From: a virus
Strand: one strand, 5' to 3'
DNA: 34,324 bases
IMG/VR virus record: IMGVR_UViG_3300043436_002588
Location: 1 to 34,324 of that record
Each line of letters opens with the position of its first letter. Positions within the stretch are counted from its first letter, which is position 1. The position numbers and the translations under genes are program-made. Positions 9,209 through 30,631 of this stretch are shown here, one piece after another. A model generated the notes under the pieces. It did no database searches. It was not told the DNA's origin and saw nothing but the letters and a program-made list of their open reading frames with translations.

Positions 9209-9266
9209 TCGCTACAACTAAAAATATTAATCCCTGACATTTGTAGCGAGTGTTGGGGATTTTTTT
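9209..9266 (+). promoter_or_regulatory. Interleaved two-stem leader RNA (pseudoknot/terminator), member A
   Basis: S1 is TCGCTACAA (9209-9217) with TTGTAGCGA (9241-9249), 9 bp. S2 is AATCCC (9229-9234) with GGGATT (9256-9261), followed by a T-run. The order S1-S2-S1'-S2' is that of an H-type pseudoknot, or of two competing hairpins of which the second is an intrinsic terminator. The ATG is at 9279. The linker before S2 reads AAAAATATTA, shared with members B-D. Confidence 0.7.
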
Positions 9267-9278
9267 AAACTATTTAAT

Positions 9279-9659
9279 ATGAAAAAAGTATTATTAATTT
9301 TAGGGTTGTCTATTTCGTTATTATCTTGTAATGATTACCAAAGACAACAAAGCCAATTAGATGCAGAAAGTGAAGGTAAATCTATTTTACTAAAAGCTGA
9401 AAGCGAAAAGAAAGCCGACATTGAACAAGCAAAGGCTAACTACGAATCTGCAAAATTAGACGCTCTTACAAAAATTGAAAAAGCAAAAGCAGAAAGCCAA
9501 TCTATTTTAATGAAAGCCGAAAGTCAAGCAAAAGCAAACAGATTATTAAACGAATCAATTACACCTGAAATTTTAGAGTTTAATAAAATAAATCGTTGGA
9601 ATGGTAAATTACCAACTACTACTTTAGGTAATCAAGGTGCAATTATAAATTTAAAATAA
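9279..9659 (+). CDS. Phage lipoprotein with a prohibitin/SPFH-like C-terminal tail
   Basis: 126 aa. The signal peptide MKKVLLILGLSISLLSC has a lipobox with Cys-17. Residues 25-95 are an Ala/Glu/Lys-rich helix with an internal repeat (AESEGKSILLKAES and AESQSILMKAES). The end, LNESITPEILEFNKINRWNGKLPTTT (read here in pieces), matches the characteristic tail of bacterial prohibitin-family (SPFH) proteins: ITPEILEF, then NRWNGKLP. The SPFH domain itself is absent. It lies opposite in strand to the surrounding late genes, with its own promoter, leader and terminator. An inferred role is membrane-level modification of the host, such as superinfection exclusion or interference with host SPFH complexes. 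Confidence 0.8.
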   Translation: MKKVLLILGLSISLLSCNDYQRQQSQLDAESEGKSILLKAESEKKADIEQAKANYESAKLDALTKIEKAKAESQSILMKAESQAKANRLLNESITPEILEFNKINRWNGKLPTTTLGNQGAIINLK

Positions 9660-9754
9660 TGAAAATACTTGTTCTTACATTAGTAGGTATTCCTTTATTG
9701 ATTATTTTCTATTTAGGAATAATTCGTTTAATAAAAGAGTTTTTTAAAAAATAA
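9659..9754 (+). CDS. 31-aa single-span membrane protein
   Basis: MKILVLTLVGIPLLIIFYLG then a basic end (RLIKEFFKK): one membrane helix with a positive, presumably cytoplasmic tail. The ATG shares a base with the lipoprotein stop (TAATG), so the two are translated together and perhaps act together at the envelope. Too short for ordinary ORF callers. No family recognised. Confidence 0.65.
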   Translation: MKILVLTLVGIPLLIIFYLGIIRLIKEFFKK

Positions 9755-9759
9755 TTTAT

Positions 9760-9767
9760 TATATTTG
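9760..9767 (+). promoter_or_regulatory. TATATTTG box before a short untranslated region
   Basis: An exact TATATTTG box on the plus strand, 5 bases past the 31-aa gene. The next plus-strand feature is only the terminator at 9815-9845, so it would give an RNA of about 70 bases with no sizeable ORF. It could be a small RNA promoter or a chance match in AT-rich DNA. Confidence 0.4.
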
Positions 9768-9814
9768 TGCTTTGAGTTTTTTCATAGTTTGAATTTTTTA
9801 GTTATTAATCATTA

Positions 9815-9845
9815 AAGCCACTTACCTGAGAGAGTGGCTTTTTTA
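9815..9845 (+). terminator. Terminator of the lipoprotein unit
   Basis: AAGCCACT (9815-9822) pairs with AGTGGCTT (9833-9840), 8 bp, followed by six T. It ends plus-strand transcription immediately before the convergent tape-measure stop at 9846; on the minus strand the stem is intact but the U-run is weak, so it may work partly in both directions. Confidence 0.8.
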
Positions 9846-11921: not shown

Positions 11922-12043
11922 TTGTTATAGTCTTTAAGTTCTTTAAAATTTTCAGGCAGTTTGTATTTACCTTTTGCGAAATCAATTGTTTCGCATTCCC
12001 CTTTTGGTGCTATCTTTAATAGCTCGATTATTAGTTTAAGCAT
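11903..12043 (-). CDS. 46-aa hypothetical protein between tail-tip and tape-measure genes
   Basis: Starting at the ATG at 12043 it reads MLKLIIELLKIAPKGECETI and ends in NKWRLQK. An upstream ATG at 12088 would lengthen it by 15 residues but overlap the tail gene by 53 bases, so the inner start (8-base overlap) is preferred. It overlaps the tape measure by 19 bases. Its place resembles that of small tail-assembly genes. No family recognised. Confidence 0.6.
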   Translation of the reverse strand: MLKLIIELLKIAPKGECETIDFAKGKYKLPENFKELKDYNKWRLQK

Positions 12044-14306: not shown

Positions 14307-15289
14307 TATATTACATCGTTTATTAGTCCGTAGTTAAATTCAAACTCAATTTCATAGTTAATATTCTTATCTTTTAAATGCGTTTTAATATCAAATGATT
14401 GACTTTTAACTATTGCTGGCTTGTTGTCTAATAAAACAACCTTGCTCAACATTAAATCCTGAATTAACTCGCTGTAATTTTCATCAACCCACCCCGTATT
14501 ACATTTTATCTTTTGAGTACCTTGAAAATTAAAACGTTGTTTAATCCCTTGTAATGGATTGAAATCGATTGATGAAGGTAATAGATTATAGTCTTTAGAT
14601 TTTACGTCTATGCCTTGTTGATTAGCTTTAAAGAAAGTAAGATACTGCCAACCCCCATAACGATTAATGTAAGTGCAAACAACAGGCGTATAAATAGGCT
14701 CGCAAAGTTCTTCAGCATAAAAATTATATACACCTAAATCACTATCTACATATTCACTCGATTGTAGTATTGGATATTTCCATAAAGAATCCTCTGTAAT
14801 ATTTAGAAAATCGTAAGAAGTATCATAAGTACCAACTTCAAAAAATATATTAACATAATTTGTATCAAAATCCTTAACATAGCTTTTAATCGAAGTATTG
14901 AAAAGCGGAACTACATCAGCATCTGTAAACTGATTATAACCACCACTATAAGAAGTATATCCATTTAAACAAACATAAACCTCATCTAATAACTCAACAT
15001 CATCTGAATAGCTTATCACTCGCATATAACACCACGTATTTACATTTTCTTCTGTAGGTACTGATACGCTAACTGGTGCAATAGGCTTAATAAAACCTTG
15101 TGCTAAATTAGAAACATTCCACGATAACTTTGTTTGTGTCGGACTCGGTACTTGCTTTGTAAAAGTATAGTTTGGAGTTGTAGGTACAGTCGTATCCTTA
15201 TTCCACAAAAATACTTCTATCTTTGCTGATGTTTGCCCCACCTCATTAACTTCTATAAAATACGGACTTCTTATAAATATCTTTTTCAT
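14306..15289 (-). CDS. Tail protein (distal tail-like)
   Basis: 327 aa, starting MKKIFIRSPYFIEVNEVG. It is beta-rich, with aromatic repeats (YINRYGGWQYLTFF) and a C-terminal KTHLKDKNINYEIEFEFNYG. This family commonly precedes the large tail-tip protein in Bacteroidota phages, where it may act like a distal tail protein. It overlaps the upstream gene by 4 bases (ATGA) and the downstream gene by one. No catalytic motif seen. Confidence 0.6.
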   Translation of the reverse strand: MKKIFIRSPYFIEVNEVGQTSAKIEVFLWNKDTTVPTTPNYTFTKQVPSPTQTKLSWNVSNLAQGFIKPIAPVSVSVPTEENVNTWCYMRVISYSDDVELLDEVYVCLNGYTSYSGGYNQFTDADVVPLFNTSIKSYVKDFDTNYVNIFFEVGTYDTSYDFLNITEDSLWKYPILQSSEYVDSDLGVYNFYAEELCEPIYTPVVCTYINRYGGWQYLTFFKANQQGIDVKSKDYNLLPSSIDFNPLQGIKQRFNFQGTQKIKCNTGWVDENYSELIQDLMLSKVVLLDNKPAIVKSQSFDIKTHLKDKNINYEIEFEFNYGLINDVI

Positions 15290-15828: not shown

Positions 15829-16265
15829 AATCTATTAGGGAAGTTCAAAGTAATCAAAACTGAATACCCATCTAATCCGTTAGCAAATGCGTTATCTATT
15901 AACAAAGGACTGCTACTCGTTACAAAAGAAATGTTTTCGTTATTCTGTAATCGTTCAGTCTTATTTAAAATACTTCTTAATACATCATAAGCTAAACTCC
16001 AATTATCCCATCGGTTATCGTTTCCGTTAAACTTATTTGTTATAGCTCTTTTATTTGTGTCTCGTTGATCAACAACTGTTACTTCAAATGTTACATCGTT
16101 AGAATTAAAATCGTTTGAATTTACCCTAACGTTTGCCATAGGGTATAAATCTTTTTTATTAAAATCTAATTCATCTTCATTTGCTGAAAATATAGTTTTA
16201 ATTCTATCATCTTCGTTCAAGTGTCCGACTATTAAATTAAGTCCTGCTAAAATAACGTTTCGCAT
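15822..16265 (-). CDS. Tail terminator-like protein
   Basis: 147 aa with FEVTVVDQRDTNKRAI and a central WSLAYDVLRSIL helix, then a beta-rich end with SVLITLNFPN. Size and pattern fit phage tail terminator proteins (gpU/Gp17 type) that cap the tube. It begins inside the frameshifted end of the tail chaperone (29-base overlap with the -1 frame), a compact arrangement. Moderate confidence because no catalytic residue exists for this family. Confidence 0.55.
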   Translation of the reverse strand: MRNVILAGLNLIVGHLNEDDRIKTIFSANEDELDFNKKDLYPMANVRVNSNDFNSNDVTFEVTVVDQRDTNKRAITNKFNGNDNRWDNWSLAYDVLRSILNKTERLQNNENISFVTSSSPLLIDNAFANGLDGYSVLITLNFPNRLC

Positions 16266-18783: not shown

Positions 18784-19100
18784 AATCTTTTTAAATCTTT
18801 CATATAGTTATTTTGATATGTAGCTCCGCAGCTTTTACAAGGCTCGGTAGTAACATTAAACAATCTTAACCAAATACCTTCACAATAAATTATATCTTGT
18901 ACTTTACTTCTTGGAATAGGTAAACCTTGATACCAACTAAATACTTCCGTTAAGAATTTCATATCTTCTTCGGTTGGCTTTTGTGCTTTTTTAAAAGGGA
19001 ATAATTTATTTAGTTTGCTTTGCCTTTTTTCACATTCGCTACATTGCTCTATTCCTAAGGCATCCGTTACAACTTTGACTGCATCTCCAAGTCCTTGCAT
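18762..19100 (-). CDS. Zinc-ribbon phage protein
   Basis: 112 aa. MQGLGDAVKVVTDALGI is followed by CSECEKRQSKL, and near residue 93 by CKSCGATY: two CxxC pairs that can bind one zinc. This family occurs next to terminase genes in Bacteroidota phages; its function is not known to me. With the sigma factor just upstream, a role in late transcription is possible but inferred. Start chosen at the ATG at 19100, which overlaps the sigma gene by 34 bases. Confidence 0.65.
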   Translation of the reverse strand: MQGLGDAVKVVTDALGIEQCSECEKRQSKLNKLFPFKKAQKPTEEDMKFLTEVFSWYQGLPIPRSKVQDIIYCEGIWLRLFNVTTEPCKSCGATYQNNYMKDLKRLWENVNT

Positions 19101-19549
19101 ATTTTTAATTTTATTCGTTGAAATCGTGTGTATATAGTTCGGTAAGGTATTCCTGTTTCACGTGATAATTTTGAAAGGTTTGCACCATCTATTTCTGCTA
19201 TAATTTCATTCTTATCATTTGTAATCTTTCTGCCAAAGTAGGCATAGTATAATTGCTTTTCTACATTTGAGAGCTTATCTAAATTTATTCTTTGTTCTTG
19301 ATAATCTTCGTTTGATATTTCAAAGATACTAAAGTCATCGATTGGGATTTCTTTTGTATTTCTGATTTTGTTAATGTAGATTGACCGCATTACGATATAA
19401 ATATATCCGAAATCTATTTCGTGAATTTGCTTACCTGTTTCATATAGCTTAATGTAAGTGTCTTGTAATAAGTCGTCGGCATTATTATGGTCAAATTTCT
19501 TTGCCATAGTTAATAATTCTTTGTGATACCTTACAAGTTCGTTTAACAT
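19067..19549 (-). CDS. Phage RNA polymerase sigma factor (ECF-like)
   Basis: 160 aa. Region 2 signature NADDLLQDTYIKLYETGKQ near residue 25 and a region 4 helix-turn-helix NLSKLSRETGIPYRTIYTRF near residue 125 are both present, with a short linker between. It would direct host RNA polymerase to phage promoters, most probably late ones, since it heads the structural operon. Starts on the stop of the 72-aa gene (TAATG). Unlike full-size sigma factors it lacks regions 1 and 3. Target promoters cannot be read from this window. Confidence 0.82.
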   Translation of the reverse strand: MLNELVRYHKELLTMAKKFDHNNADDLLQDTYIKLYETGKQIHEIDFGYIYIVMRSIYINKIRNTKEIPIDDFSIFEISNEDYQEQRINLDKLSNVEKQLYYAYFGRKITNDKNEIIAEIDGANLSKLSRETGIPYRTIYTRFQRIKLKICKDLEMQSKL

Positions 19550-19767: not shown

Positions 19768-19785
19768 ATTTTATATTTTTAAAAT

Positions 19786-19851
19786 AAATCAGGAATAGCC
19801 AAACCTGATTTGATTATCAATCTTATAAGCCATTATAAGAACGTTGCTATT
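19786..19851 (-). promoter_or_regulatory. Interleaved two-stem leader RNA, member E (late operon)
   Basis: On the minus strand S1 is AATAGC with GCTATT (19846-19851 with 19794-19799), 6 bp. S2 is AAATCAGG with CCTGATTT (19804-19811 with 19786-19793), 8 bp. Between them sits a perfect 8-bp hairpin (TCTTATAA/TTATAAGA, 19821-19840). The order is S1, hairpin, S2, S1', S2'. The U-run after S2' is weak here. Confidence 0.65.
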
Positions 19852-19856
19852 TTTCA

Positions 19857-19864
19857 CAAATGTA
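19857..19864 (-). promoter_or_regulatory. TACATTTG promoter of the late operon
   Basis: The minus strand reads TACATTTG, 89 bases before the ATG at 19767. The leader structure begins about 6 bases downstream. It appears to serve the sigma factor, terminase and tail genes. Confidence 0.6.
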
Positions 19865-20738: not shown

Positions 20739-21960
20739 ATTGCTTTTTAAAAATTGAATTGGTATAATCTAATTTTTTTGAAACTGCATTATATATATTT
20801 TGTTCTATTCCGTTTTTTGAAAATATCCAAAATACATTATTTACGGCTCTATCTTTTGTGGTTAATCTATCTTTACTTTGAAAGTAACTAACTGCACTAA
20901 ATTGAATGTTAAACATTACAAGCGCATCGGCTTTCGCTAAACTAATTCCCTCACGACCTGAAACTATTTGAAGTGCTATCCATTTATCAGTTGTATTAAA
21001 TTCGTCTAAATCCGTTGTCAATTTATTGCCAAACGTTTGTTTTAACATTTCAAGTTCAGCTACAAAATTATAAAAAATTGCTATTTTGTATTCAGCAAAC
21101 TTTTGCTGAATAAATAACGCCTTTGAATTGTCTATTATTTGCGTTGATCCATCTTCAAATTTTATAGTTCCGCTTGAAAGCTGGTGTATTTTCTGCTGCA
21201 ATTTTACGGCTGTGTCTGCTACAATTGATTTGCCAGTTGTTGAAGAAGTTACTACTAAATCCTTTTTTAGCTTATCAATTATCTTGTAGGTAATCGGTTG
21301 CATTTCAACTTCTAAAATCATTTCATTAACGTTGGATGTGAATCCAGCTTCGGACTGCGTATAAGTTAAAATGTAATACCTACATAAGTGCCAAAAGTCT
21401 TTTTTTCTTGCTTCGGAGTAATCATTTACTTTTGCATATCCTAAATTCCTTTGCTTAATATCCACATATTTATTCGCCCATTTATAAAAGTTTGCAAATT
21501 CTTTAAAAGGATTGTTATTTGAAAGTGTAAACAAATGATAATATTGTGAGTAACTTTCAGGCGTTGGCGTTCCGCTTAACATTATCATAGGAATATTCCC
21601 AAAACGTTGTTTTATATCTTTGTGGTATTTACTTGGTTTAGGGTACGAACTATATCCATGAACCTCATCAATTATAACAATATCAAAATCGTTTGTTTCT
21701 ACCTTATGTAATGATTCACGATTGATAATAGTCAAGTCATAAGTATAACCAAAGTTTTTATAATCGGATTCAATAGAAGAAAACGCTTTAATTTTAGTTA
21801 TAAATAAAACACGATTAGCATTTACTTTTTTACAAGTTTCAAGAGCTGTTATTGTCTTGCCAACGCGTACCTCAAGGAATAAACATACTAATTTTTTTCT
21901 TTGTAAAATCTCGCTTGCGTCATCTGAAATTCTAATTTGATAATCTCTAAGTTGTTGCAT
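20674..21960 (-). CDS. SF2 DEAD/DEAH-box helicase
   Basis: 428 aa. N-terminal ATPase lobe: Walker A is the variant EVRVGKT near 29-35, motif II is DEVH near 98-101, and SGTPTP near 132 is motif III. The second lobe has LQIVSGREGISLAKAD (motif V) and SYFQSKDRLTTKD (motif VI, with a Lys where many have Arg). It would unwind or remodel DNA for replication or recombination. It begins 14 bases before the end of the NUMOD4 gene, and it is followed by VRR-NUC, a common phage pair. Confidence 0.85.
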   Translation of the reverse strand: MQQLRDYQIRISDDASEILQRKKLVCLFLEVRVGKTITALETCKKVNANRVLFITKIKAFSSIESDYKNFGYTYDLTIINRESLHKVETNDFDIVIIDEVHGYSSYPKPSKYHKDIKQRFGNIPMIMLSGTPTPESYSQYYHLFTLSNNNPFKEFANFYKWANKYVDIKQRNLGYAKVNDYSEARKKDFWHLCRYYILTYTQSEAGFTSNVNEMILEVEMQPITYKIIDKLKKDLVVTSSTTGKSIVADTAVKLQQKIHQLSSGTIKFEDGSTQIIDNSKALFIQQKFAEYKIAIFYNFVAELEMLKQTFGNKLTTDLDEFNTTDKWIALQIVSGREGISLAKADALVMFNIQFSAVSYFQSKDRLTTKDRAVNNVFWIFSKNGIEQNIYNAVSKKLDYTNSIFKKQYGIKDTTQNNKEVRSRRLLCS

Positions 21961-22429
21961 AGTATTTATTTTTTAATATGTTATAAATAGTTGAAACATC
22001 AACATTAAAATTATCAGCTAAATATTTTATATTTCCTTTTCTACCTTTTACTGCTTTATTTCTTATGTAAATAACTTGAGAGTTATCTAATTTTCTAATT
22101 GGATTTTTTTTATTAAGATAATTATAAGAATGTATTTCGTTTTCTGAATGCGTACTCCATTCTAAATTACCTAAAGAATTATTTAATTTGTTCCCGTCTT
22201 TATGATTTACACATTTTTTGTTATCTTCATTTTTTAAAAAAGATAATGCTACAAGTCTATGAACTAAAAATCTTTTTACTTTGTTTTCTTTGCATAAAGA
22301 AACTCTTAAATAACCTTTTGATAATTCTTTTTTTAATATTCTTTTTTTAGAATATTTATTACTAATAACTACTCCATTAGTACTTACTTCATAATCTTCA
22401 AAACCTTCAATTTTTTTCCAAACTTCCAT
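21947..22429 (-). CDS. NUMOD4/HNH homing endonuclease
   Basis: 160 aa. NUMOD4 start: EVWKKIEGFEDYEVSTNGVV. HNH core: FLVHRLVALSFL, CVNHKDGNKLNNSLGNLEW. C-terminal helix-turn-helix near 130-155 (IKYLADNFNVDVSTIYNIL). This is the usual layout of free-standing homing endonucleases. It sits between leader D and the helicase gene with a 14-base overlap, so its spread could have captured the leader. Confidence 0.9.
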   Translation of the reverse strand: MEVWKKIEGFEDYEVSTNGVVISNKYSKKRILKKELSKGYLRVSLCKENKVKRFLVHRLVALSFLKNEDNKKCVNHKDGNKLNNSLGNLEWSTHSENEIHSYNYLNKKNPIRKLDNSQVIYIRNKAVKGRKGNIKYLADNFNVDVSTIYNILKNKYYATT

Positions 22430-22510
22430 AAAATAAAAACCACCAAGTCAAAAGGTCGTCGTCTTTATCATTGGTGGAATTTGTATAATGTTTTTAATTG
22501 TAGCGACGAC
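22430..22510 (-). promoter_or_regulatory. Interleaved two-stem leader RNA, member D
   Basis: On the minus strand S1 is GTCGTCG (22504-22510) with CGACGAC (22455-22461), 7 bp. S2 is CCACCAA (22471-22477) with TTGGTGG (22440-22446), 7 bp, followed by TTTTTATTTT and then the ATG at 22429. The linker contains AAAAACATTA. Topology S1-S2-S1'-S2' matches members A-C. Confidence 0.72.
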
Positions 22511-22520
22511 TCTACAAATG

Positions 22521-22528
22521 CAAATATA
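22521..22528 (-). promoter_or_regulatory. TATATTTG promoter of the NUMOD4-helicase operon
   Basis: The minus strand reads TATATTTG about 11 bases before S1 of leader D begins. Confidence 0.6.
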
Positions 22529-22584
22529 CGAATTATTATTTAATAAACAAATAAACTTCCATAAATAGACAAACTAACTTTTTA

Positions 22585-22608
22585 CGATGCAACGTTTCCG
22601 CTGCATCG
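22585..22608. repeat. 10-bp inverted repeat with GAAA tetraloop on the minus strand
   Basis: The minus strand reads CGATGCAGCG, GAAA, CGTTGCATCG: ten paired positions (one G-U) closed by a GNRA tetraloop. It is 31 bases past the primase-helicase stop. No U-run follows, so it is not a typical terminator. Outer bases AAACTA and TAGTTT could pair around it. Confidence 0.65.
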
Positions 22609-22638
22609 CTTGAAAGTCTTTCTTGGTAGTCACGTAGT

Positions 22639-24984
22639 TTAAAAATCAATTCCATCATCTTCAATTTGTTTTTCATCTGCTCCAATAATCATAAACTTAC
22701 GAACACCACCATTTGTTGTATCTTCACGTTTCCATTTTTTATAATCGAAATACATACCTAACCATCTACCGAACCAACTTGCATTCATATTACGAGGCAT
22801 TTCTCTAACTCCATCTGCATAAGATTGCATTATTTCTTTAGTTGTATAATAATGATTATTTCTCCATAAAAATTCATTCTCACAAAAGTCAAAGAAATCT
22901 TCGCAAGTATTAGCAATTACTTTTTTAGTTTTCCCTGTTTTTAATTCAGAAAACAAAAGTCCGTTTTTAAAATACTTTTGAATATTTAAAATCATATAGC
23001 TAAAAAATGAATCCCACTCTTTTAAACTCCAACCACTAAAAAATAATTTATTAAATTCATCAATAGGTTTATAGGTTTTAGAATAGTGTCTAAAAAGTTC
23101 TATTTCAATTTTACGTGCATCGTGTGAATCTCCAACTCCAGATAAAATATAATTTGATGTAAAAAGTATTTTAGGACTTCTTGAAAATGGTATTTCAATT
23201 GGTTGTAAGTTCTTTTTATTCAAAACTAAATTACCTGTTATAATAGAAAATAAACTTTCAAATTTAAAAGACCGTTCCATATCATCAAAACAAATAATAT
23301 TATCATCTAAATTAATTGTTTGATATGGGAATTGTCCTTTATTATTAAATTCTTTACCATTCAAAGTAACTAACTTTCTACATTGTCCGAGTGCTTTTGA
23401 TATTAAAGTTTTACCTGTACGCCCTGAAGGATTATCATTTAAAGTTTCATCATAAAAAACTATTGCAAGTCCTTCATCTTGTTTTTTATGGTTGTTAAGT
23501 AAATATCCAATTGCACATTCTACAACTATTTTTCTTTCTTTCTCTTGTTTAGAAACATTTAAAATAAACTTTTCAAAATCTGAACTTTCATTTGAAAAAT
23601 TATAATCGTGTTCAATTATATTTTTTTCCCAAACAAAACCGCCAATATTTATGTAGTCAATTAATTCAGTTTTATCTTTAGTTATTTTTAGAACTCCATT
23701 TTTAAAAAATAAATAAGAAGTATCTTCAGTATCTCTAATCATTGCAAGGTCTTTAGTTGCTAATTGATTAAGATATGTTTCAGAAAATTTAGCTGTTGAT
23801 TTTGCAAAAAAATTATAAACGTGCATATCAACTTCTACAACGTGATTTAAAACAAAGTCTTTAATATTTGTTTCGTTTATTTCGTTTATAATGTTATTAT
23901 AAACTCGTACAAAAGTAAATTCTTTATCATTTAGTTGAACTTTATAAAAACCTCTATTCTCTAAAAACAATTTAAACTTATAATCATTTAAAGATAGCTT
24001 TCCGTTTTTATCTGTGTCCCAAAAAATTAAGAAGTCATCTTCAAAATCAAAATCAATAACATCTTCAATATCTGAATCCTCTAAGCCTTCTTTGCGAAAT
24101 TCCTTTTTCGCTTTTTGAACCCCCTTTTTTAAAATTTCCTGAGCCTCTCTAATTTTATTATCATCAACTAAAGTTAAACTATCAAATTCGTTTGTTCTTT
24201 TGTATGCTGATTTTATTATTGTTTCAAGTTCAGAATCTTCCAAACCTACTGAATAGAAATTTTTAAATAAATTTAATGCTTCATCGCTTGGTAACCCTGC
24301 TTTATTTAAACCGCAAGCAAGTTTAAAAAGATTGTTATTTCTTTCTCCAGCATTTAGGGTAAATTTCTTGTTAAACCATTTTAATATTACATCTACTTTT
24401 TTATTAGTATCTGTTATTACAAAATGTTTTGGAAACTTATTTGAACGTGTTACTTCTGTATATTCTTTTTTTAAAGTCCAAACTTTAGAGTTTTCATTTA
24501 TAAATAAATCAGGGTCGTAACTTTCATAGCAAACTCTTGAAATATCTTTTGTTTTTTCATCTAATTTAGTATCAAAAGTTTCACAAATTGCCTCGTAATA
24601 TTTTTTATAATCTTGAATTTCTTTAGGAACTTTTACAAGCGCCTTTACTCCATTACCTGAAGGACTAATAAAAGCCGAATAAATATATTCATTATCTTGT
24701 AAAGAATCCCTTAAACAAATAGGGTCATCAACATCATCAAAATCTAAACAAGCAAACCCTGAATGATTAATAATATTTTTAGCTGCTCTATATGAAAACT
24801 CCCCACTAAAACAAATTGATTTTAATTTAGCTTTTTCTTTGTTTCTTTCTTCTTTATCTTTAATATTTCTAATTCGTTCTATTTTTTCTTTATTAGAACC
24901 ATCTTTTAAAGATAATAATACGTCGTTAATCTCTTTGTAGAATGGATTTTCTACATCTCTTACGTGTGCAAATACTGTTACCAT
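22639..24984 (-). CDS. Primase-helicase: BT4734/VirE-N domain fused to SF3-type helicase
   Basis: 781 aa. Residues 1-165 match the BT4734/VirE-N primase-like domain: FACLDFDDVDDP carries the acidic pair, FISPSGNGVKALVKV follows, then ISRVCYESYDPDLF. A linker and helical region reach about residue 480. The SF3 helicase has Walker A NPSGRTGKT near 520, Walker B NIICFDDME near 562 and motif C KILFTSN near 605. It is the main replication initiator candidate and lies next to the iteron region at 25260-25480. It shares its first base with the stop region of the 74-aa gene. Confidence 0.88.
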   Translation of the reverse strand: MVTVFAHVRDVENPFYKEINDVLLSLKDGSNKEKIERIRNIKDKEERNKEKAKLKSICFSGEFSYRAAKNIINHSGFACLDFDDVDDPICLRDSLQDNEYIYSAFISPSGNGVKALVKVPKEIQDYKKYYEAICETFDTKLDEKTKDISRVCYESYDPDLFINENSKVWTLKKEYTEVTRSNKFPKHFVITDTNKKVDVILKWFNKKFTLNAGERNNNLFKLACGLNKAGLPSDEALNLFKNFYSVGLEDSELETIIKSAYKRTNEFDSLTLVDDNKIREAQEILKKGVQKAKKEFRKEGLEDSDIEDVIDFDFEDDFLIFWDTDKNGKLSLNDYKFKLFLENRGFYKVQLNDKEFTFVRVYNNIINEINETNIKDFVLNHVVEVDMHVYNFFAKSTAKFSETYLNQLATKDLAMIRDTEDTSYLFFKNGVLKITKDKTELIDYINIGGFVWEKNIIEHDYNFSNESSDFEKFILNVSKQEKERKIVVECAIGYLLNNHKKQDEGLAIVFYDETLNDNPSGRTGKTLISKALGQCRKLVTLNGKEFNNKGQFPYQTINLDDNIICFDDMERSFKFESLFSIITGNLVLNKKNLQPIEIPFSRSPKILFTSNYILSGVGDSHDARKIEIELFRHYSKTYKPIDEFNKLFFSGWSLKEWDSFFSYMILNIQKYFKNGLLFSELKTGKTKKVIANTCEDFFDFCENEFLWRNNHYYTTKEIMQSYADGVREMPRNMNASWFGRWLGMYFDYKKWKREDTTNGGVRKFMIIGADEKQIEDDGIDF

Positions 24985-25208
24985 TACGAAATATAATTAT
25001 AGAAATAAACATCATCTGAATTACTTACAAATTCAAAGTCATAATCTTCAAAACCATTTATTCTAACTTCAATTTTAGAAGGTGGTTTTTTTGTAATTGC
25101 TAATTCCTTTAGTAAAATATGATACGCAGTTGAATGTATCATTTTCTGAATGCTTTGATGTGTAGTGTCTAAATCAAAGTCTTGTTTGTTAAGAACAAAT
25201 AATCTCAT
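24984..25208 (-). CDS. 74-aa hypothetical protein upstream of primase-helicase
   Basis: MRLFVLNKQDFDLDTTHQSI, with an acidic, aromatic end (DDVYFYNYIS). The gene begins the replication transcript from the TATATTTG box at 25235 and overlaps the primase start by one base. No family recognised; position suggests a role in replication. Confidence 0.6.
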   Translation of the reverse strand: MRLFVLNKQDFDLDTTHQSIQKMIHSTAYHILLKELAITKKPPSKIEVRINGFEDYDFEFVSNSDDVYFYNYIS

Positions 25209-25234
25209 ATAATAAAATATTAATTAATAAAAAG

Positions 25235-25242
25235 CAAATATA
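25235..25242 (-). promoter_or_regulatory. TATATTTG promoter of the replication operon
   Basis: The minus strand reads TATATTTG 26 bases before the ATG at 25208. The short leader has no strong interleaved stems, unlike the six structured leaders. Confidence 0.65.
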
Positions 25243-25259
25243 ATAAAAAAAATTTAACA

Positions 25260-25480
25260 TATCCGTTTGTAAACGTTTAATATCGTTTAACATCAAAACA
25301 GCATCAAAACAGCATTTGATGTATTGGATAAAGGATTATAAAATATAGCATTTTAATATAAAAAACAGCAAAACAGCATTTTTTTACTTTTTGTACAAAA
25401 AAATATTTTTTACTACTTTTTAAAAAATATATATAAAGAAAAAGGCGTTTTAGTGTGTTTTGGTGTTTTAGTGTAATTAT
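25260..25480. other. Iteron-rich non-coding region, candidate replication origin
   Basis: This roughly 220-base stretch has no ORF. It contains tandem CATCAAAACAG units (25291-25301 and 25302-25312), a CATCAAA/TTTGATG inverted repeat (25302-25321), two overlapping AAAACAGCA units (25362-25378), a GTTTgtAAAC palindrome near 25265, and a repeated GTTTTAGTGT (25447-25473). It lies between the SSB-like gene and the primase-helicase promoter. This layout resembles iteron origins bound by an initiator; no experimental support is visible here. Confidence 0.5.
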
Positions 25481-25505
25481 AAAAAAACCACCTCGAAAGG
25501 TGGTT
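25481..25505 (-). terminator. Terminator after the SSB-like gene
   Basis: On the minus strand AACCACCTTTCGAGGTGG forms a 7-bp stem with a short loop, followed by seven T. It isolates the origin-like region from SSB transcription. Confidence 0.85.
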
Positions 25506-25511
25506 AATTAT

Positions 25512-26180
25512 TTAAAAGTCTAAATCTTCTTCGTCTATTGGTTCATCAACAACAGGCTCTGCTTTTACTAAATACGTTTTTAAATACGTTTCTAATACAT
25601 TAAACGCTTCGTCTGCTAAATCTGCTTCAGGATCTGAAATTGAACGCTCAAATTTAAAGTCAGGCGTATAGAATTTAACTGCACCCTTTTTGCCATCAAC
25701 TACGCTTTCAACAATTACCCACTCATCAGGAAGTCTTTGTCTTGTTTTGGCTGTAAATTCTCCCCACTTTTGAACTGCTGCACCTTTTAACTGAATGTTT
25801 GCAAGTGAACCATCTTCTAACATAATGTAAATAGATTTTACATAATGCCCTCCAGCAGCTTGAACTTTCTCTTTAATATCTTTGTAAAGTCCTTTTGCAA
25901 TTTCGTTACCCTTAAAAGGTTTAACAGTCATTGGTTCTTTAGAAATAAATTTCACTTCATTTGAAAAAATACCGCTTGAAGTTGCATCGTTCCATCCCTT
26001 AATTGCGTGAAGTTCGTCTAATACTAAAAATTTAAAAGGTAGCGGAACTAAAACATTTTCTTGTTTTTCTTTGTCATAGTAAGAGAAACATTTGTCATTT
26101 GATTTCCAGTCAAAGAATTTATTTGCTGGATTTGATTGTGGTTGAGAAAATGCACCACGTCTGTTTGAAGTTGTACTCAT
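25512..26180 (-). CDS. Putative single-stranded DNA-binding protein
   Basis: 222 aa. The protein is globular for about 195 residues, with aromatic and basic positions (NKFFDWKSNDKCFSYYDK, then YVKSIYIMLEDGSL) and ends in an acidic tail DEPIDEEDLDF. Such a tail is typical of phage and bacterial SSBs that recruit partners. The family is common near replication genes in Bacteroidota phages. OB-fold is inferred, not demonstrated. Preceded by pseudoknot-like leader F and its own promoter. Confidence 0.65.
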   Translation of the reverse strand: MSTTSNRRGAFSQPQSNPANKFFDWKSNDKCFSYYDKEKQENVLVPLPFKFLVLDELHAIKGWNDATSSGIFSNEVKFISKEPMTVKPFKGNEIAKGLYKDIKEKVQAAGGHYVKSIYIMLEDGSLANIQLKGAAVQKWGEFTAKTRQRLPDEWVIVESVVDGKKGAVKFYTPDFKFERSISDPEADLADEAFNVLETYLKTYLVKAEPVVDEPIDEEDLDF

Positions 26181-26198
26181 AATATTGTATTTGTTTAT

Positions 26199-26230
26199 GG
26201 TCTGAAATTAAGATGCTCAAACCTTGCATC
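26199..26230 (-). promoter_or_regulatory. Compact H-type pseudoknot leader, member F (SSB-like gene)
   Basis: On the minus strand S1 GATGC (26226-26230) pairs with GCATC (26212-26216). S2 GGTTTGA (26217-26223) pairs with TCAGACC (26199-26205), with one G-U. Loops are 2, 0 and 6 bases, a classical H-type geometry. The start codon is 18 bases downstream. T4 gene 32, another phage SSB gene, is autoregulated through a leader pseudoknot; similar control is possible here. Confidence 0.6.
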
Positions 26231-26246
26231 GGTTAATATTATTTAT

Positions 26247-26254
26247 CAAAGATA
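26247..26254 (-). promoter_or_regulatory. TATCTTTG promoter of the SSB-like gene
   Basis: The minus strand reads TATCTTTG, 66 bases before the ATG at 26180. Stem S1 of leader F begins 16 bases downstream of the box. Confidence 0.6.
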
Positions 26255-26287
26255 CAAAATTAAAAAGTAATAGTAAAATTTATTTTA

Positions 26288-26737
26288 CTAAAAACTAATA
26301 GCCAAACTTGACTTTCTTTGTGTGCTACTTACTTTCGTTACTTCAACTCCTTCACTGTCGTAAATTGTGTCTTTTGACTTTGTAGCTACTTTAATAAGTT
26401 CAGCACGTTCTTTTAATTTAGCTTCTAATTCAGCATAAACGTAATCCTCTTTGTAGTTAAGTGATTCTCCACCACTTCGGTAAGTTCCTTTAATTCCAAA
26501 TGCTTCAAAGTTTTCTTGCGGAATTGAGTTTTTAAGTTCATCGGTTACAATTTGTAACGCCTCGTTAATTCTTACGGCTTGTGCGTAAAGTTCCATTTTG
26601 TCAGTTGTTCCAGTATCTAAAAGATTGCTAACAAATGATTTTGCAGAAAGTCTTATCTCCGCTTTTGTTGGTAGAAAATTGTTTGTTTCTACTGATTGTT
26701 CCTGTAACATCAGGAATAAATTTGAGTTCGCTCCCAT
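26288..26737 (-). CDS. 149-aa hypothetical protein upstream of SSB-like gene
   Basis: MGANSNLFLMLQEQSVETNN, then a helical region (YAELEAKLKERAELIKVA) and a Ser/Thr-rich end (VSSTQRKSSLAISF). It has its own promoter and lies between the methyltransferase terminator-like region and the SSB-like promoter. A recombination or replication partner (for example Gam- or Gp157-like) is a guess from position and helicity only. Unrecognised otherwise. Confidence 0.6.
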   Translation of the reverse strand: MGANSNLFLMLQEQSVETNNFLPTKAEIRLSAKSFVSNLLDTGTTDKMELYAQAVRINEALQIVTDELKNSIPQENFEAFGIKGTYRSGGESLNYKEDYVYAELEAKLKERAELIKVATKSKDTIYDSEGVEVTKVSSTQRKSSLAISF

Positions 26738-26759
26738 AATTTTGATTTTTAAAGTTATG

Positions 26760-26767
26760 CAAATATA
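26760..26767 (-). promoter_or_regulatory. TATATTTG promoter of the 149-aa gene
   Basis: The minus strand reads TATATTTG 22 bases before the ATG at 26737; the leader is short and unstructured. Confidence 0.65.
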
Positions 26768-26801
26768 ACATTTTTTTGTTAATTAAAAAAATAAATTAGA
26801 T

Positions 26802-26881
26802 AAAAAACGATTAACCTATACATCGTGAGGTTTTAAGGCAATTATATAAAATCAAATCACGTAATTAATATTAATTTGCCT
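26802..26881 (-). terminator. Interlocked stems and U-run after the methyltransferase gene
   Basis: In minus-strand order: AGGCAA (26876-26881) with TTGCCT (26836-26841); CGTGA (26857-26861) with TCACG (26824-26828); AACCT (26828-26832) with AGGTT (26813-26817); CGAT (26822-26825) with ATCG (26808-26811), then six T. The pairs interleave rather than nest, and the second pair shares bases with the third and fourth, so alternative folds are likely. The last two stems plus U-run mimic the leader layout but sit at the 3' end of an operon. Confidence 0.45.
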
Positions 26882-27893
26882 AAAATAATGTTTCTTGTTT
26901 TACACTTTCTTTAAATCTTTTATTTGCTTCTTCTAAATTTAATTTAGCTTGTTTAAAGTAACTATCTTTTAATTCAATTCCGATAGCTTTACGACCCATT
27001 GAAACAGGACTAAAAACCTCACTACCTACACCCATAAAAGGAGTTAGAACAACCTCATCAGGATTTGAATATAACTCAATAATTCTATCAATTACATCAA
27101 GTTGTAAAGGGTGTACGTGCTTTTCGTCATCTTCTTCTTTTGAATCCCTGAAAGGTAAAACGTTATCAATTCTAATATCGTCCCAAACACTCGAAGCATA
27201 ACGTTGCCATATGTAATGATTTAATTTAGTTATCTTATCATCTTCATTAATATTATTAAGGTGTTCCCAAAGTTGCACCTCGTTTAAATCTGAATTATTA
27301 GCATTATTCCATGCTCTTAAAATGTTTGGTAAAATAGGAATTTCTCCAGCGTAATGATTAATTCCAAATTTATGAGTTACAGGGACTTTATTTTCGCCTT
27401 TTTTAGTAAATACTAAAACATAATCAGGCATAGCTGTAAAACATTTTGTACTATCTTCGACTATAAATTTATGCATTAAAGATTGTACCATAGTACGCAT
27501 ACGAACTTTTAAAGGTTCTTTCCAAATGGTAATACGATTACGATATTCAAATCCGTATTTTTGGTGTATTCTAATTATTTCGTTTGGAAAATCCCAAAGT
27601 CTACAAGTATTATCAAATACATCAGTACAATGCACAGCAGTTATACGACCTGATTTTGTAACCCTTGCAATTTCAGCTACTAAAAATTCGTATTGCTCTA
27701 AAAATTGTTCTTTACTTTCGCAATTAGACATATCGTGTTCAGAACTTGAATAGTTATATAGTCCTGCAAAAGGTGGACTATAAACTGACAAATCAACACT
27801 TTCATTATCTAAAGTTGGCATTACTAACATACAATCACTATTATAGATTGCGTAACGGTCTGTAACGATTTGGTCTTTTACTTTGTTTTCCAT
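26880..27893 (-). CDS. DNA methyltransferase (beta-class, SPPF motif)
   Basis: 337 aa. Catalytic motif IV is SPPF at residues 39-42, and the S-adenosylmethionine motif I is FMGVGSE near residue 290. The order (IV before I) is that of beta-class amino-methyltransferases. SPPF is more typical of N4-cytosine than N6-adenine enzymes, but this is not decisive. It may protect phage DNA from host restriction. It starts 1 base after the SNF2 helicase gene and shares its transcript. Confidence 0.85.
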   Translation of the reverse strand: MENKVKDQIVTDRYAIYNSDCMLVMPTLDNESVDLSVYSPPFAGLYNYSSSEHDMSNCESKEQFLEQYEFLVAEIARVTKSGRITAVHCTDVFDNTCRLWDFPNEIIRIHQKYGFEYRNRITIWKEPLKVRMRTMVQSLMHKFIVEDSTKCFTAMPDYVLVFTKKGENKVPVTHKFGINHYAGEIPILPNILRAWNNANNSDLNEVQLWEHLNNINEDDKITKLNHYIWQRYASSVWDDIRIDNVLPFRDSKEEDDEKHVHPLQLDVIDRIIELYSNPDEVVLTPFMGVGSEVFSPVSMGRKAIGIELKDSYFKQAKLNLEEANKRFKESVKQETLF

Positions 27894-27894
27894 G

Positions 27895-29265
27895 TTATAA
27901 AAATTTTGGTTTAATTAATTCTTTGTTAAATTCTTTTACTTTGTTTTCAAAACTACGATTAACATTTTCTGTTAAGTTTTTATGTAGCTGTATTGCTTTT
28001 TGTGTCTTTTGTTCTAAGGCTTCTAATACCCTTGTTTGTCCGTCTGAAATTACCATATCAATAGTAACGTTATTTTTTTGTCCGAACCTCCAAAAACGTC
28101 TTATAGCTTGGTAATATTGTTCATAACTCCACGTTGGAAAAAATACCGAATGATTACAATGCTGCCAGTTTAAACCCATTGAAGTCATCTTTGCCTTTGT
28201 TATTAGCCTTTCAATTTCTCCATTTGCAAAAGCTAAAAGTATTTCTTCTTTTTTATCAATTGATTGACTGCCTATGATTTCAACAGCTTTTGAATCTGAA
28301 TGTTTTAAAATACTACTTTCGTTATTTGTGTTACACCAATAAACCGAAGTTTTACCACTTGCTAACTCGATAGCTTTTGCACATCTTTTTTCTTCTGTTT
28401 GCTTTTGTTCGTGTCTTACTTCTGTCATTGACTTTGCAATAGGCGTAAACATTTGTATTTGACCATTTACATCGATTAAAGATTGATTTTCTACAACGTG
28501 TCTATTAATTAATAATTCAGGCAAATTGTAACGTTCATTACTAAAACCTAAATCGCTTGGCATTTTTGCCATAATTGACCATTGATTAACCCACGCAAAG
28601 AAATCCTTTTCGGCATGTGGTTTTAAGTAAAACTTTTCACCTATATTACGATTATTGCTATCGACTGAATTTTGGTTATTCTTAAAAAACTTACCTAACA
28701 TATCCATATAACCCATATAACCTAAAGCCTCGCTACTTGTTCCCAATTCTATAAAATCGTTTGGACTTGGTGTGGCTGTACTTAAAAATCTATAAGGTAT
28801 TTTTTTTACAAAACTTGTAACTTCTTGTTTAATTTTTCCGTCAAAGTTTTTTAAAATAGAACTCTCATCTAAAATTACAGCCTCAAAATCATTTTCATTA
28901 AAATAATGTAAACGCTCATAATTACAAATAATAATTTTTTTAGTATGCTTACCGTCTTTTGAATATTCAACATCTTCGATACCTAACTTTTCAGCTTCTA
29001 AAACAAATTGAAAAGCAACCGCTAAAGGTGTTAATATCAATACTTTTTTATTTGTGTGATTAACTATATTTTTTGCAATAGATAACTGAACTAAAGTTTT
29101 ACCTAAGCCAGTGTCTAAAAATACAGCTACACGACCTTTTTCAATAGCTTTTTCAATAACGTGTTTTTGAAAGTCAAAAGCTATGTCAGGAATGTAATTT
29201 GCTTTAAAACCAAAGTTCCCTATCGAGTGTCTTTTTGATTCTAAAAATTTTTCGTAATCTGTCAT
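27895..29265 (-). CDS. SNF2-like DEAD/DEAH helicase
   Basis: 457 aa from the ATG at 29265. Walker A DTGLGKT (51-57), motif II DESS near 130, STATPSPND near 165, C-terminal SMGLNWQHCNHSVF and the QAIRRFWRFGQ arginine-finger motif VI are all visible. An upstream in-frame ATG at 29313 lies inside leader C (between S1' and the U-run), so the later start is preferred. It is coupled to the methyltransferase (1-base gap), a pairing often seen in phages. Role in replication, recombination or modification targeting is open. Confidence 0.85.
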   Translation of the reverse strand: MTDYEKFLESKRHSIGNFGFKANYIPDIAFDFQKHVIEKAIEKGRVAVFLDTGLGKTLVQLSIAKNIVNHTNKKVLILTPLAVAFQFVLEAEKLGIEDVEYSKDGKHTKKIIICNYERLHYFNENDFEAVILDESSILKNFDGKIKQEVTSFVKKIPYRFLSTATPSPNDFIELGTSSEALGYMGYMDMLGKFFKNNQNSVDSNNRNIGEKFYLKPHAEKDFFAWVNQWSIMAKMPSDLGFSNERYNLPELLINRHVVENQSLIDVNGQIQMFTPIAKSMTEVRHEQKQTEEKRCAKAIELASGKTSVYWCNTNNESSILKHSDSKAVEIIGSQSIDKKEEILLAFANGEIERLITKAKMTSMGLNWQHCNHSVFFPTWSYEQYYQAIRRFWRFGQKNNVTIDMVISDGQTRVLEALEQKTQKAIQLHKNLTENVNRSFENKVKEFNKELIKPKFL

Positions 29266-29282
29266 AATATTTAAAATAAAAA

Positions 29283-29364
29283 TGCCTACCTGTATTTGCA
29301 TCGGCTTCGACATCGATACTCCTACAAATAGGCTAATGTTTTTAAGTTACTAATTTGTCGAAGC
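29283..29364 (-). promoter_or_regulatory. Interleaved two-stem leader RNA, member C
   Basis: On the minus strand S1 GCTTCGAC (29357-29364) pairs with GTCGAAGC (29304-29311), 8 bp. S2 GCCTA (29330-29334 region) pairs with TAGGC (29284-29288), 5 bp, followed by ATTTTTATTTT. The linker contains AAAAACATTA. S2 and its tail have nearly the same sequence as in member B. Confidence 0.7.
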
Positions 29365-29376
29365 GTAACTATTGCA

Positions 29377-29384
29377 CAAATATA
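29377..29384 (-). promoter_or_regulatory. TATATTTG promoter of the helicase-methyltransferase operon
   Basis: The minus strand reads TATATTTG, 13 bases before stem S1 of leader C. Confidence 0.65.
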
Positions 29385-29395
29385 ATGTTTTTTTG

Positions 29396-29515
29396 TTAAT
29401 TACATCTATTTTTTAATATTTTTTTATAGAGTGTATTAATACGTTCAGAATTCACGCCTCTTTTATAGTAAAAATTCATTACTCTTTTAATTCTTTGTAG
29501 CGGTGTTTGTTTCAT
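29396..29515 (-). CDS. 39-aa basic hypothetical protein
   Basis: MKQTPLQRIKRVMNFYYKRG then NSERINTLYKKILKNRCN: a very basic, mostly helical peptide. Starts by ATGA overlap with the 54-aa gene, and ends just before the promoter at 29377. It could bind nucleic acid, but no family is recognised. Confidence 0.5.
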   Translation of the reverse strand: MKQTPLQRIKRVMNFYYKRGVNSERINTLYKKILKNRCN

Positions 29516-29676
29516 TTTAATAAATATTTAATCGGTTTATTTTTTATATGTTCCATTTGTTTAACTTGTTCTAAAACTTCTTTAGCTTTTAAAGTAGTTT
29601 CTTTTTTAATTTCGTATGCTGTAGGGATTCGCTTACCTACTAATACAGGACTTTTACGCTTCGATAATTTCGACAT
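29512..29676 (-). CDS. 54-aa basic hypothetical protein
   Basis: MSKLSKRKSPVLVGKRIPTA followed by a Lys/Glu-rich helix. It overlaps the HTH gene end by 23 bases and the 39-aa gene start by 4, so the three form one unit downstream of the HNH gene. Confidence 0.5.
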   Translation of the reverse strand: MSKLSKRKSPVLVGKRIPTAYEIKKETTLKAKEVLEQVKQMEHIKNKPIKYLLK

Positions 29677-29845
29677 TTATTTTGTAATTTAATTTTTTAC
29701 AAGCTTTTTGCAATGTTTCGAAAGAGCAAACTACCTGATTATTTAAAATGTGGTTTAAATGTGAGTAGCTGATTTCAGTTTTTCTCGCAAATTCTCTTTG
29801 GCTTATTCCCTCTTTTAGGAATATTTCTTTTAGTTTATTATTCAT
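29654..29845 (-). CDS. Small XRE-type HTH regulator
   Basis: 63 aa. Helix-turn-helix around ISQREFARKTEISYSHLNHIL, with a C-terminal ETLQKACKKLNYKINVEI. It is a minimal Cro-like single domain with no oligomerisation region. It starts on the HNH stop (ATGA). It could regulate one of the nearby promoters. Not large enough for a CI repressor. Confidence 0.8.
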   Translation of the reverse strand: MNNKLKEIFLKEGISQREFARKTEISYSHLNHILNNQVVCSFETLQKACKKLNYKINVEIIEA

Positions 29846-30534
29846 ATTAAAGTTAATTGTTGTTCTATAATTTTATCGCTTTTACTTAAATTATCTTCAG
29901 CCCATAAAGGTTGAAAATTTGTATAATGATTTAATCTAATTATATCATTTTTGCTATTTGCACTTGCTAATGGTATAATATGGTCTAAATGCCATTCTCC
30001 GTGATTATAAAAGCTCATTCCTTTTTTAAATTTACTTTCTATATAATATCTAAATTCTTCTATTGTACAACCTAAAATTTTTTCTGTTTTTGAATTTTTT
30101 TTATATTGATTAGTTCCTTTTTTAAAAGAATTATAAATTAAACTTCTTGTATTCTGCTTAAACTTAAATACAAAATCTTTTTGTTTTCTTTTATTAATAT
30201 ATTCTAAATTTCTTTTATTTATATTTTCTTTATTTTTTTTATACCTTTCTTTACTTAACTCTATACAACGCTCTTTGTTTTTTTTATAGTACTCTTTTTT
30301 GTATTCCTTTATATGTTCTTTGTTTTTTTCTTGTCTTTTTTTATAATTTTCTTTATTTTCTTGGTATTTTTTTTTAGTTAATGCATTATGTTTTTCTTTA
30401 TTTTTTTTATACCAATTTCTACTATTTTCTGCTATACAGCTTTTACAAGTTGTACTATAATTATCTTTATAACTTTTAGCTTTACTAAAAAAATCATAAT
30501 CTTTAATATCATTACATTTATTACACTTTTTCAT
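29842..30534 (-). CDS. HNH endonuclease with Lys/Glu-rich repeat region
   Basis: 230 aa. N-terminal CNKCNDIKDYDFFSK with CKSC forms a zinc-binding module; residues about 45-125 are repeats of KKNKE/Y type (YKKNKERCIELSK, YKKNKENINKRN); the C-terminal HNH core is EWHLDHIIPLASANS then NFQPLWAEDNLSKSDK. This is a known phage HNH type with variable middle repeats. Preceded by promoter and leader B. Confidence 0.85.
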   Translation of the reverse strand: MKKCNKCNDIKDYDFFSKAKSYKDNYSTTCKSCIAENSRNWYKKNKEKHNALTKKKYQENKENYKKRQEKNKEHIKEYKKEYYKKNKERCIELSKERYKKNKENINKRNLEYINKRKQKDFVFKFKQNTRSLIYNSFKKGTNQYKKNSKTEKILGCTIEEFRYYIESKFKKGMSFYNHGEWHLDHIIPLASANSKNDIIRLNHYTNFQPLWAEDNLSKSDKIIEQQLTLI

Positions 30535-30548
30535 ATATTAAAAAAAAA

Positions 30549-30631
30549 TGCCTACCATATTTCAAACGCATCTCAACTCGTTTTCCATATAATAGGCTAT
30601 AATATTTTAATTGTTACTTTAATTGAGATGC
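30549..30631 (-). promoter_or_regulatory. Interleaved two-stem leader RNA, member B
   Basis: On the minus strand S1 GCATCTCAA (30623-30631) pairs with TTGAGATGC (30568-30576), 9 bp. S2 GCCTA (30594-30598 region) pairs with TAGGC (30550-30554), 5 bp, followed by ATTTTTTTT and the ATG at 30534. The linker reads AAAATATTA. Confidence 0.72.

Follow-up and report, generated by a model that had tools for sequence, protein, structure and literature searches.

Leaders that act through RNA folding have been described for several phage and bacterial genes. The operator of T4 gene 32 consists of a 5' pseudoknot of about 28 nucleotides (nt) followed by UUAAA/UAAA repeats (PMC535899). In the guanidine-IV riboswitch, a kissing loop impedes completion of the terminator stem, while growth of P2 leaves less linker and puts the kiss under strain (PMC11611296). 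In the phage homing endonuclease genes I-TevI, mobE, and segB, RNA structure limits expression and hides the ribosome site (PMC3014915). Here, we analyzed a stretch of 34,324 bases, the whole IMG/VR virus record IMGVR_UViG_3300043436_002588 (the window), in which a sequence-only reading had proposed that six gene leaders, named below by position, share one interleaved pairing of two stems (S1-S2-S1'-S2'). The six leaders fall into two kinds, type A (9209, 19786, 22430, 29283, and 30549) and type B (26199). We favor, with some reserve, a joint reading in which type A is a cis-acting transcription attenuator and type B a translational operator of the T4 gene 32 kind.

All six interleaved pairings were found where they had been placed, and a TAnnTTTG-type promoter element lies upstream of each leader, as had also been claimed. 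Each promoter-to-start segment was compared with 300 dinucleotide shuffles, and the number of shuffles scoring at least as high as the real leader was 0 for 9209, 29283, and 30549, 1 for 22430, 8 for 26199, and 9 for 19786. The pairings of 9209, 22430, 29283, and 30549 are each far above chance on their own letters; 19786 and 26199 alone are borderline and only suggestive, and the case for both rests on their relatives. The single architecture assumed for all six had to be given up, as 26199 is an H-type pseudoknot without a U-run in front of a gene family of its own. The 109 named phage records that match bases 1-25000 are all from Flavobacterium phages, among them the Muminvirus group, whose named isolates carry type A leaders; in snusmum6-1, those of the helicase and HNH genes have S1 at 9728 and 13667. 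It is probable that Flavobacterium viruses steer several genes through RNA shape. The statement that no described family has these features agrees with Rfam 15, which at the gathering threshold gave no match in the window, and hence none at any of the six leaders, and with expect values (E) up to 5 gave no riboswitch match at them. A search limited to open-access papers found nothing on these leaders, and in the paper on the Muminvirus isolates (PMC7077304), the terms promoter, terminator, intergenic, secondary structure, and homing endonuclease gave no hit.

In type A, a Bacteroidota promoter is followed by S1, an A-rich linker, a hairpin (hairpin B), a U-run, and the start codon. S1 lies near the 5' end of the transcript or inside the loop of a small hairpin (hairpin A), and S1' lies in the apical loop of hairpin B; the GC-rich hairpin with a U-run directly 3' of it is a feature of intrinsic terminators. 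Plain minimum free energy (MFE) folding, unprompted, recovered hairpins A and B in 22430, 29283, and 30549 (class I), where the S1 contact is a loop-loop kiss because S1 and S1' sit in two hairpin loops. Type A is mostly a kissing-loop terminator hairpin rather than a plain two-stem pseudoknot. Class II (9209 and 19786) lacks a clear hairpin A, and its S1 begins about 5 nt past the promoter element. By eye, the stems of 19786 are kept in five relatives (L486, L490, L491, L492, and L493), L487 and L488 have quite unlike stems in the same arrangement, also with ATTTT at the end, and the arrangement is absent from the remaining relatives shown.

The family had been proposed to recur over operons, and it was seen over many phages too. 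By eye, many upstream regions of 80 helicase homologues share the type A plan with unrelated stems, and others show none. When 181 loci (975,043 bases) were scanned with a descriptor, there were 89 matches at a score of at least 32 vs 6.0 per shuffle, and 29 matches at a score of at least 42 vs 0.0; these counts, and those of the 344 loci below, include near-identical contigs. Another scan, anchored on promoters and with no U-run demanded, covered 876,293 bases in 44 stretches of 24 records and gave 28 matches at a score of at least 40 vs 3.75 per shuffle, and 21 of the 28 vs 0.25 of the 3.75 had a U-run, in line with the U-runs reported after S2'. At least one leader passed the filters in 14 of the 24 records, and no S1 was repeated within any record among their 29 leaders; a test for orthogonal S1 in alpha-like leaders, too small in itself, found 0 of 4 same-locus pairs equal, with a chance of equality of 0.32. 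From 344 loci, 175 matches were reduced to 127 unique leaders, of which 96 remained after 31 failed the filters, 54 after removal of redundancy, and 52 after exclusion of the coding-like L251 and L257. The 52, chosen for pairing, promoter, and U-run, have 45 distinct S1 and 52 distinct S2. The proposed linker near AAAAAYATTA stood as a tendency, not as a universal feature: the pattern AAR(R)NMTT, composed after inspection of the data, occurs in 28 of the 54 leaders, whereas shuffling of the linkers gave 10.3 and, in 500 rounds, never more than 19. An AGUA/GAA loop-E motif was present in only 4 of the 52 leaders and is not claimed.

Selection at the RNA level, as postulated earlier, is supported by covariation in relatives of both types, including the compensatory changes that had been suggested as a check. 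For type A, 41 sequences of the alpha subfamily, to which 22430 belongs, were aligned; 98.4% of the cells are paired, and both partners vary in 17 of 22 pairs, a level reached by 0 of 500 shuffles. All four helices covary, and slid partners pair at 30-52%. The rows were picked with S1 required, so the 100% pairing of the S1 helix is partly due to selection. The kissing of S1 and S1' between the hairpin A loop and the terminator hairpin is backed by the covariation in this subfamily. In a non-circular test, the alpha pattern was searched with the S1' letters unconstrained, and among the matches listed (106 distinct), the 7-nt S1 lies upstream in 37 of 37 with the S2 stem and promoter and in 0 of 69 others. 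The alpha model R1, which detects 10 of 12 phage records given and 8 of 8 of those with the alpha pattern, also picks up non-alpha leaders, though weakly (E 2e-4 to 0.03). It had no match in a sample of 395 Bacteroidia genomes under strict filters and with low sensitivity (11 candidates scored in the genomes listed), nor in 10 host genomes in an insensitive search, and a function of type A in host chromosomes was rejected on these low-sensitivity results. The alpha pattern with up to three mismatches matched 3 of the 395 genomes, by eye apparently by chance, and HNH relatives in bacterial genomes have a strong leader upstream in just 2 of 80. Comparison of leaders 19786 and 26199 with named phages by blastn gave weak matches only, taken for chance.

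The observed pairing, covariation, position, U-run, and recurrence across phages are consistent with a kiss that competes with a terminator. S1, free or displayed in the loop of hairpin A, would pair with S1' once S1' exits the RNA polymerase and before S2' exists; S1' is transcribed earlier than S2', and therefore the kiss can form first. Hairpin B and the U-run would act as an intrinsic terminator, and the kiss, held by the limited A-rich linker, would hinder the closing of the base of hairpin B and result in read-through into the gene. When the kiss is lost or outpaced, transcription would stop just before the start codon. The median MFE over the 52 leaders is -16.2 kcal/mol for hairpin B alone and -10.7 kcal/mol for the S1 duplex. 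By analogy, we propose for type A the same contest between kiss and terminator as in guanidine-IV; its termination and the direction of its effect are predictions, and it may need no regulator beyond folding kinetics.

Several points weigh against this attenuator. Hairpin B is usually interrupted by an internal loop, and within 22300-30800 no leader is reported by a standard terminator scan (loop 3-8), the type A hairpins being missed because their loops are long. One subfamily pairs its own U-run (GAGAAACCC/GGGUUUUCUC, by eye). In the Bacteroidota leaders, the linker pairs with its own U-run no better than with swapped tails (4.23 vs 4.71 pairs); kiss and terminator may therefore coexist there instead of being mutually exclusive. 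The linker as the strand that completes the terminator stem was rejected for these leaders on the same figures. The U-run served as a filter in the later sets, so only the promoter-anchored scan measures U-runs freely, and 10 of its 24 records had no leader passing the filters.

Three other explanations of type A were weighed. The first, which we consider unlikely, takes the leader as an antitermination or repression site read by its shape, either bound by a host or phage factor or acting as RNA on the polymerase. The protein Rop binds the RNAI/RNAII complex, and the put RNA of HK022 acts on polymerase. Several operons of one phage share the shape with unrelated stems, the linker motif recurs, and in 26 of the 52 leaders the two strands of the internal loops both carry GA, a count without a control or chance comparison; however, no candidate factor was found, and the put sequences are conserved, unlike the letters of type A. 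Somewhat less likely still, the fold may be a 5' stability element that locks the first nucleotides against end-dependent RNases, with a U-run that merely keeps the start codon open. Such an element would agree with sequences that vary freely under a constant shape and with a first helix that starts within 8 nt of TTTG in 39 of the 52 leaders, both with hairpin A (42 of the 52) and without it, but it needs neither the U-run, whose frequency far exceeds that in controls, nor a kiss with a distal hairpin, as a simple 5' hairpin would suffice. That hairpin B is a mere terminator of the upstream operon with an incidental S1 match is very improbable in spite of the GC-rich hairpin and U-run between operons, as S1 and S1' covary, S1 tracks S2 and promoter in the 37 matches above, hairpin B sits 3' of its own promoter, and a separate terminator-like hairpin lies further upstream in 23 of the 96 leaders vs 11.8 in shuffles. 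An antisense promoter, a leader peptide, and a Pistol ribozyme were set aside on informal inspection only.

The type A plan is not confined to Flavobacterium phages. Among 69 unique regions 5' of HNH homologues in other phages, a strong pseudoknot is present in 14 vs 0.4 in shuffles, and at least five of these (L501, L502, L512, L516, and L519) have a TATAAT-like promoter immediately before a 10-13-nt S1. Two of the TATAAT HNH leaders, with the same plan as type A, are in metagenome-assembled genomes of Clostridia. In the four that were folded (L414, L502, L512, and L519), formation of the S1 helix precludes the long terminator and vice versa; prior to synthesis of S2', the 12-base-pair (bp) S1 helix reaches -14 to -21 kcal/mol, compared with -35 to -39 kcal/mol for the terminator. 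It is possible, and we suggest it tentatively, that tailed phages use a letter-free device, a promoter-proximal segment and a terminator hairpin with a complementary loop, which is invented or re-lettered repeatedly with an own S1 per leader and read by the polymerase or by one shape-specific factor, also outside Flavobacterium phages. In the HNH leaders of L396 and L414, which also have TATAAT-like promoters, as in the five leaders above, the 10-13-nt S1 at the 5' end of the transcript complements the loop of the long terminator, and the tail of L396 also resembles an anti-Shine-Dalgarno sequence. The remaining pseudoknot-bearing HNH regions are of different kinds, one being int-alpA: positions 708-774 of L576, in the leader of an HNH gene, match this RNA (RF02996, E 1.2e-7), and L509, L538, and L566 have TAGGG-like letters at the equivalent place.

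Type B is an H-type pseudoknot of 5 S1 pairs and 7 S2 pairs, with a first loop of AA (2 nt), a last loop of 6 nt, and no U-run, and AUAAAUAAAUAAA-like letters, A/U-rich with UAAA-like repeats, lead from it to the start codon. The stems of the T2 gene 32 pseudoknot have 5 and 7 bp. Type B precedes phrog_6706 in 54 of the 55 upstream regions examined, namely the window and 54 of 59 loci (L485 and four loci without upstream sequence, L477, L479, L481, and L483, being omitted), and the sole miss, L428, is itself cut short. In the alignment of 36 of the 37 unique regions, 99.3% of the cells are paired, both-side changes occur in 10 of 12 pairs (2 of 500 shuffles reach 10), and covariation cells number 77 vs 14.1 in shuffles (0 of 500). 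The excluded L484 (46% identity) has a last loop of 7 nt and 4 of 5 S1 pairs. The AlphaFold2 model of the phrog_6706 protein (predicted local distance difference test score 84.7) matches the gp32 cores of RB69 (2a1k, Z 5.4) and T4 (1gpc, Z 5.3) with 144 residues aligned, ahead of the OB domains of BRCA2 and RPA. The acidic C-terminal tail ends in EEDLDF, and the homologue in Mycobacterium phage Courthouse adjoins a DNA polymerase/primase gene.

The observed pseudoknot with its covariation, the A/U-rich stretch, and the gp32-like predicted fold, at a moderate score, together make a gene-32-like operator the most economical reading. By analogy, free phrog_6706 protein would bind the pseudoknot, spread along the A/U-rich stretch, and block the ribosome. 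On the other side, the top structural match is not gp32 but the PhiC31 recombination directionality factor (RDF; 9teh_I, Z 7.0), a Z of about 5 falls in the middling range of the tool, and Foldseek found no PDB match of the model at E of at most 0.001. In addition, in the 30 listed of 52 Mycobacterium phage entries, the homologue is annotated as hypothetical and in none as single-stranded DNA-binding protein, the distant relative L485 has no type B leader by eye, and the search itself demanded at least 4 S1 and 6 S2 pairs, with no region dropped for lack of pairing. A PDB sequence search with the phrog_6706 profile gave two weak, unrelated names only. A pseudoknot that serves another end than autogenous repression, such as mRNA stability or translation enhancement, is a lesser though serious possibility: the binding of single-stranded DNA by phrog_6706 is a prediction at that Z, but a compact pseudoknot with an A/U-rich stretch of the T4-operator kind, a gp32-like predicted fold, and covariation over 36 relatives speak for the operator. 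Separately, the PhiC31 match hints that this RDF and gp32-like proteins may share a fold.

The genes 3' of the six leaders encode, in order of position, a lipoprotein, phrog_933, a NUMOD4/HNH_3 endonuclease, phrog_6706, a DEAD-box helicase, and an endonuclease VII-like protein. Downstream of the 25 leaders with an open reading frame in the window and the whole-contig set, the proteins judged by eye include nucleases of the HNH and GIY-YIG kinds, helicases, lipoproteins, primase-like proteins, and others of unknown kind. Pfam domains in 94 downstream proteins were HNH_3 (20), NUMOD4 (16), DEAD (10), GIY-YIG (4), and BT4734-like primase (4), counts that are biased because the loci were fetched via helicase and HNH queries. 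The genes downstream of type A are often homing endonucleases and replication genes. Control of early, replication, and late operons alike had been proposed; many homing endonuclease and replication genes and one operon with a sigma-like gene agree with only part of this. A reading as RNA-guided nucleases was dropped because the downstream genes belong to unrelated families. The positions of the leaders, their parts, and adjoining genes are given in Table 1.

Table 1. Leaders, promoter elements, and adjoining features in the window
Feature	Position	Strand	Parts or description	Basis
Promoter -7 element of leader 9209	9196..9203	+	TATATTTG	sequence, promoter scan
Leader 9209, type A, class II	9209..9266	+	S1 9209-9217, linker 9218-9228, S2 9229-9240, S1' 9241-9249, S2' 9250-9261, U-run to 9266	pairing, folding, 0/300 shuffles
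Lipoprotein gene (phrog_200) 3' of leader 9209	9279-9659			
Promoter element of leader 19786	19857..19864	-	TACATTTG	sequence
Leader 19786, type A, class II	19781..19851	-	S1 19851-19846, S2 19811-19804, S1' 19799-19794, S2' 19793-19786, then ATTTT	relatives with different stems, 9/300 shuffles
Operon 3' of leader 19786			phrog_933, then sigma-like gene 19067-19549	
Promoter element of leader 22430	22521..22528	-	TATATTTG	sequence
Leader 22430, type A, class I, alpha subfamily	22435..22517	-	hairpin A 22517-22512/22503-22498, its loop holding S1 22510-22504; S2 22477-22471, inner stem, S1' 22461-22455, S2' 22446-22440, U-run 22439-22435	covariation, folding, 1/300 shuffles
NUMOD4/HNH_3 gene 3' of leader 22430	21947-22429			Pfam
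Promoter element of leader 26199	26247..26254	-	TATCTTTG	sequence
Leader 26199, type B, H-type pseudoknot	26199..26230	-	S1 26230-26226, AA, S2 26223-26217, S1' 26216-26212, 6-nt loop, S2' 26205-26199	36-sequence covariation, 8/300 shuffles
A/U-rich stretch, pseudoknot to start codon	26181..26198	-	UAAA and CAAA units	
phrog_6706 protein	25512..26180	-	222 amino acids; predicted fold like gp32 core and other OB domains; acidic C-terminal tail	
Promoter element of leader 29283	29377..29384	-	TATATTTG	sequence
Leader 29283, type A, class I	29278..29370	-	hairpin A 29370-29365/29350-29345, S1 29364-29356, S2 29333-29323, S1' 29312-29304, S2' 29294-29284, U-run 29282-29278	folding, 0/300 shuffles
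DEAD-box helicase gene 3' of leader 29283	start read as 29265			
Promoter element of leader 30549	30644..30651	-	TATTTTTG	sequence
Leader 30549, type A, class I	30540..30637	-	hairpin A 30637-30633/30617-30613, S1 30631-30623, S2 30597-30587, S1' 30576-30568, S2' 30560-30550, U-run 30548-30540	folding, 0/300 shuffles
HNH/endonuclease VII-like gene (phrog_1035) 3' of leader 30549	29842-30534			

Some further features of these loci were observed. The lipoprotein gene, under a promoter and leader of its own, runs opposite to the structural genes and is moron-like, and its homologues, e.g., at L092, L096, and L099, are preceded by the same leader. The second gene of the operon behind leader 19786 matches phrog_1740, an RNA polymerase sigma factor (E 2.5e-9), and may be a late regulator under a type A leader. 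In the window, a strong two-way terminator (AACCACCTTTCGAGGTGGTT, 25486-25505) separates operons. In L327, L269, L300, and L121 (the last by eye), a strong terminator-like hairpin lies directly 5' of the leader promoter, and its T-run extends into the promoter region, suggesting an insulated cassette. A subfamily of L195, L003, L185, and L204 has an extra hairpin in the linker and a U-run paired with GAGAAA (by eye), and several members lie 5' of large primase-like genes.

If the joint reading is true, the phages of a little-studied phylum control homing endonuclease and replication genes through a shared RNA device with very strong covariation, and type B is an operator of the gene 32 type in phages that do not belong to the T4 group. 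In addition, kissing-loop terminators, each with a private loop, could be useful as parts in synthetic biology.

Among known systems, the Pistol ribozyme has a 5' hairpin loop that pairs with a downstream strand and an A-rich linker; it is not among the Rfam matches of the window, and no conserved catalytic letters were seen in type A. The int-alpA RNA is structured, has a U-rich 3' end in its consensus, and matches the HNH leader in L576, but its consensus and fold are other than those of type A, and the window contains no match to it up to E 5. The guanidine-IV riboswitch is also named the mepA motif. At the gathering threshold, Rfam matched only a tRNA in 10 leader-bearing loci, the presence of the guanidine-IV model in the library not being checked.

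The structures of I-TevI, mobE, and segB hide a ribosome site, whereas type A pairs a kissing partner with a hairpin that resembles a terminator, and it lies in front of helicase and lipoprotein genes as well. Type A shares with guanidine-IV two linked hairpins, a loop-loop kiss, a poly-U terminator, and, as we infer for type A, a kiss that opposes completion of the terminator (PMC11611296). It differs in stems and loops without fixed letters, in a class II without the first hairpin, and in genes that are phage nucleases and replication proteins, not exporters, and it is a candidate device without a known ligand. Type B differs from the gene 32 operator in its unrelated phage group, a protein only distantly gp32-like by its predicted fold, a shorter spacing to the start codon, and no Shine-Dalgarno sequence seen by eye. 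With the operators of T4, T2, and RB69, it shares an H-type 5' pseudoknot of two coaxial stems (PMC535899, PMC3014915) and, extending to the start codon, an A/U-rich stretch that is unstructured and contains UAAA repeats (PMC535899).

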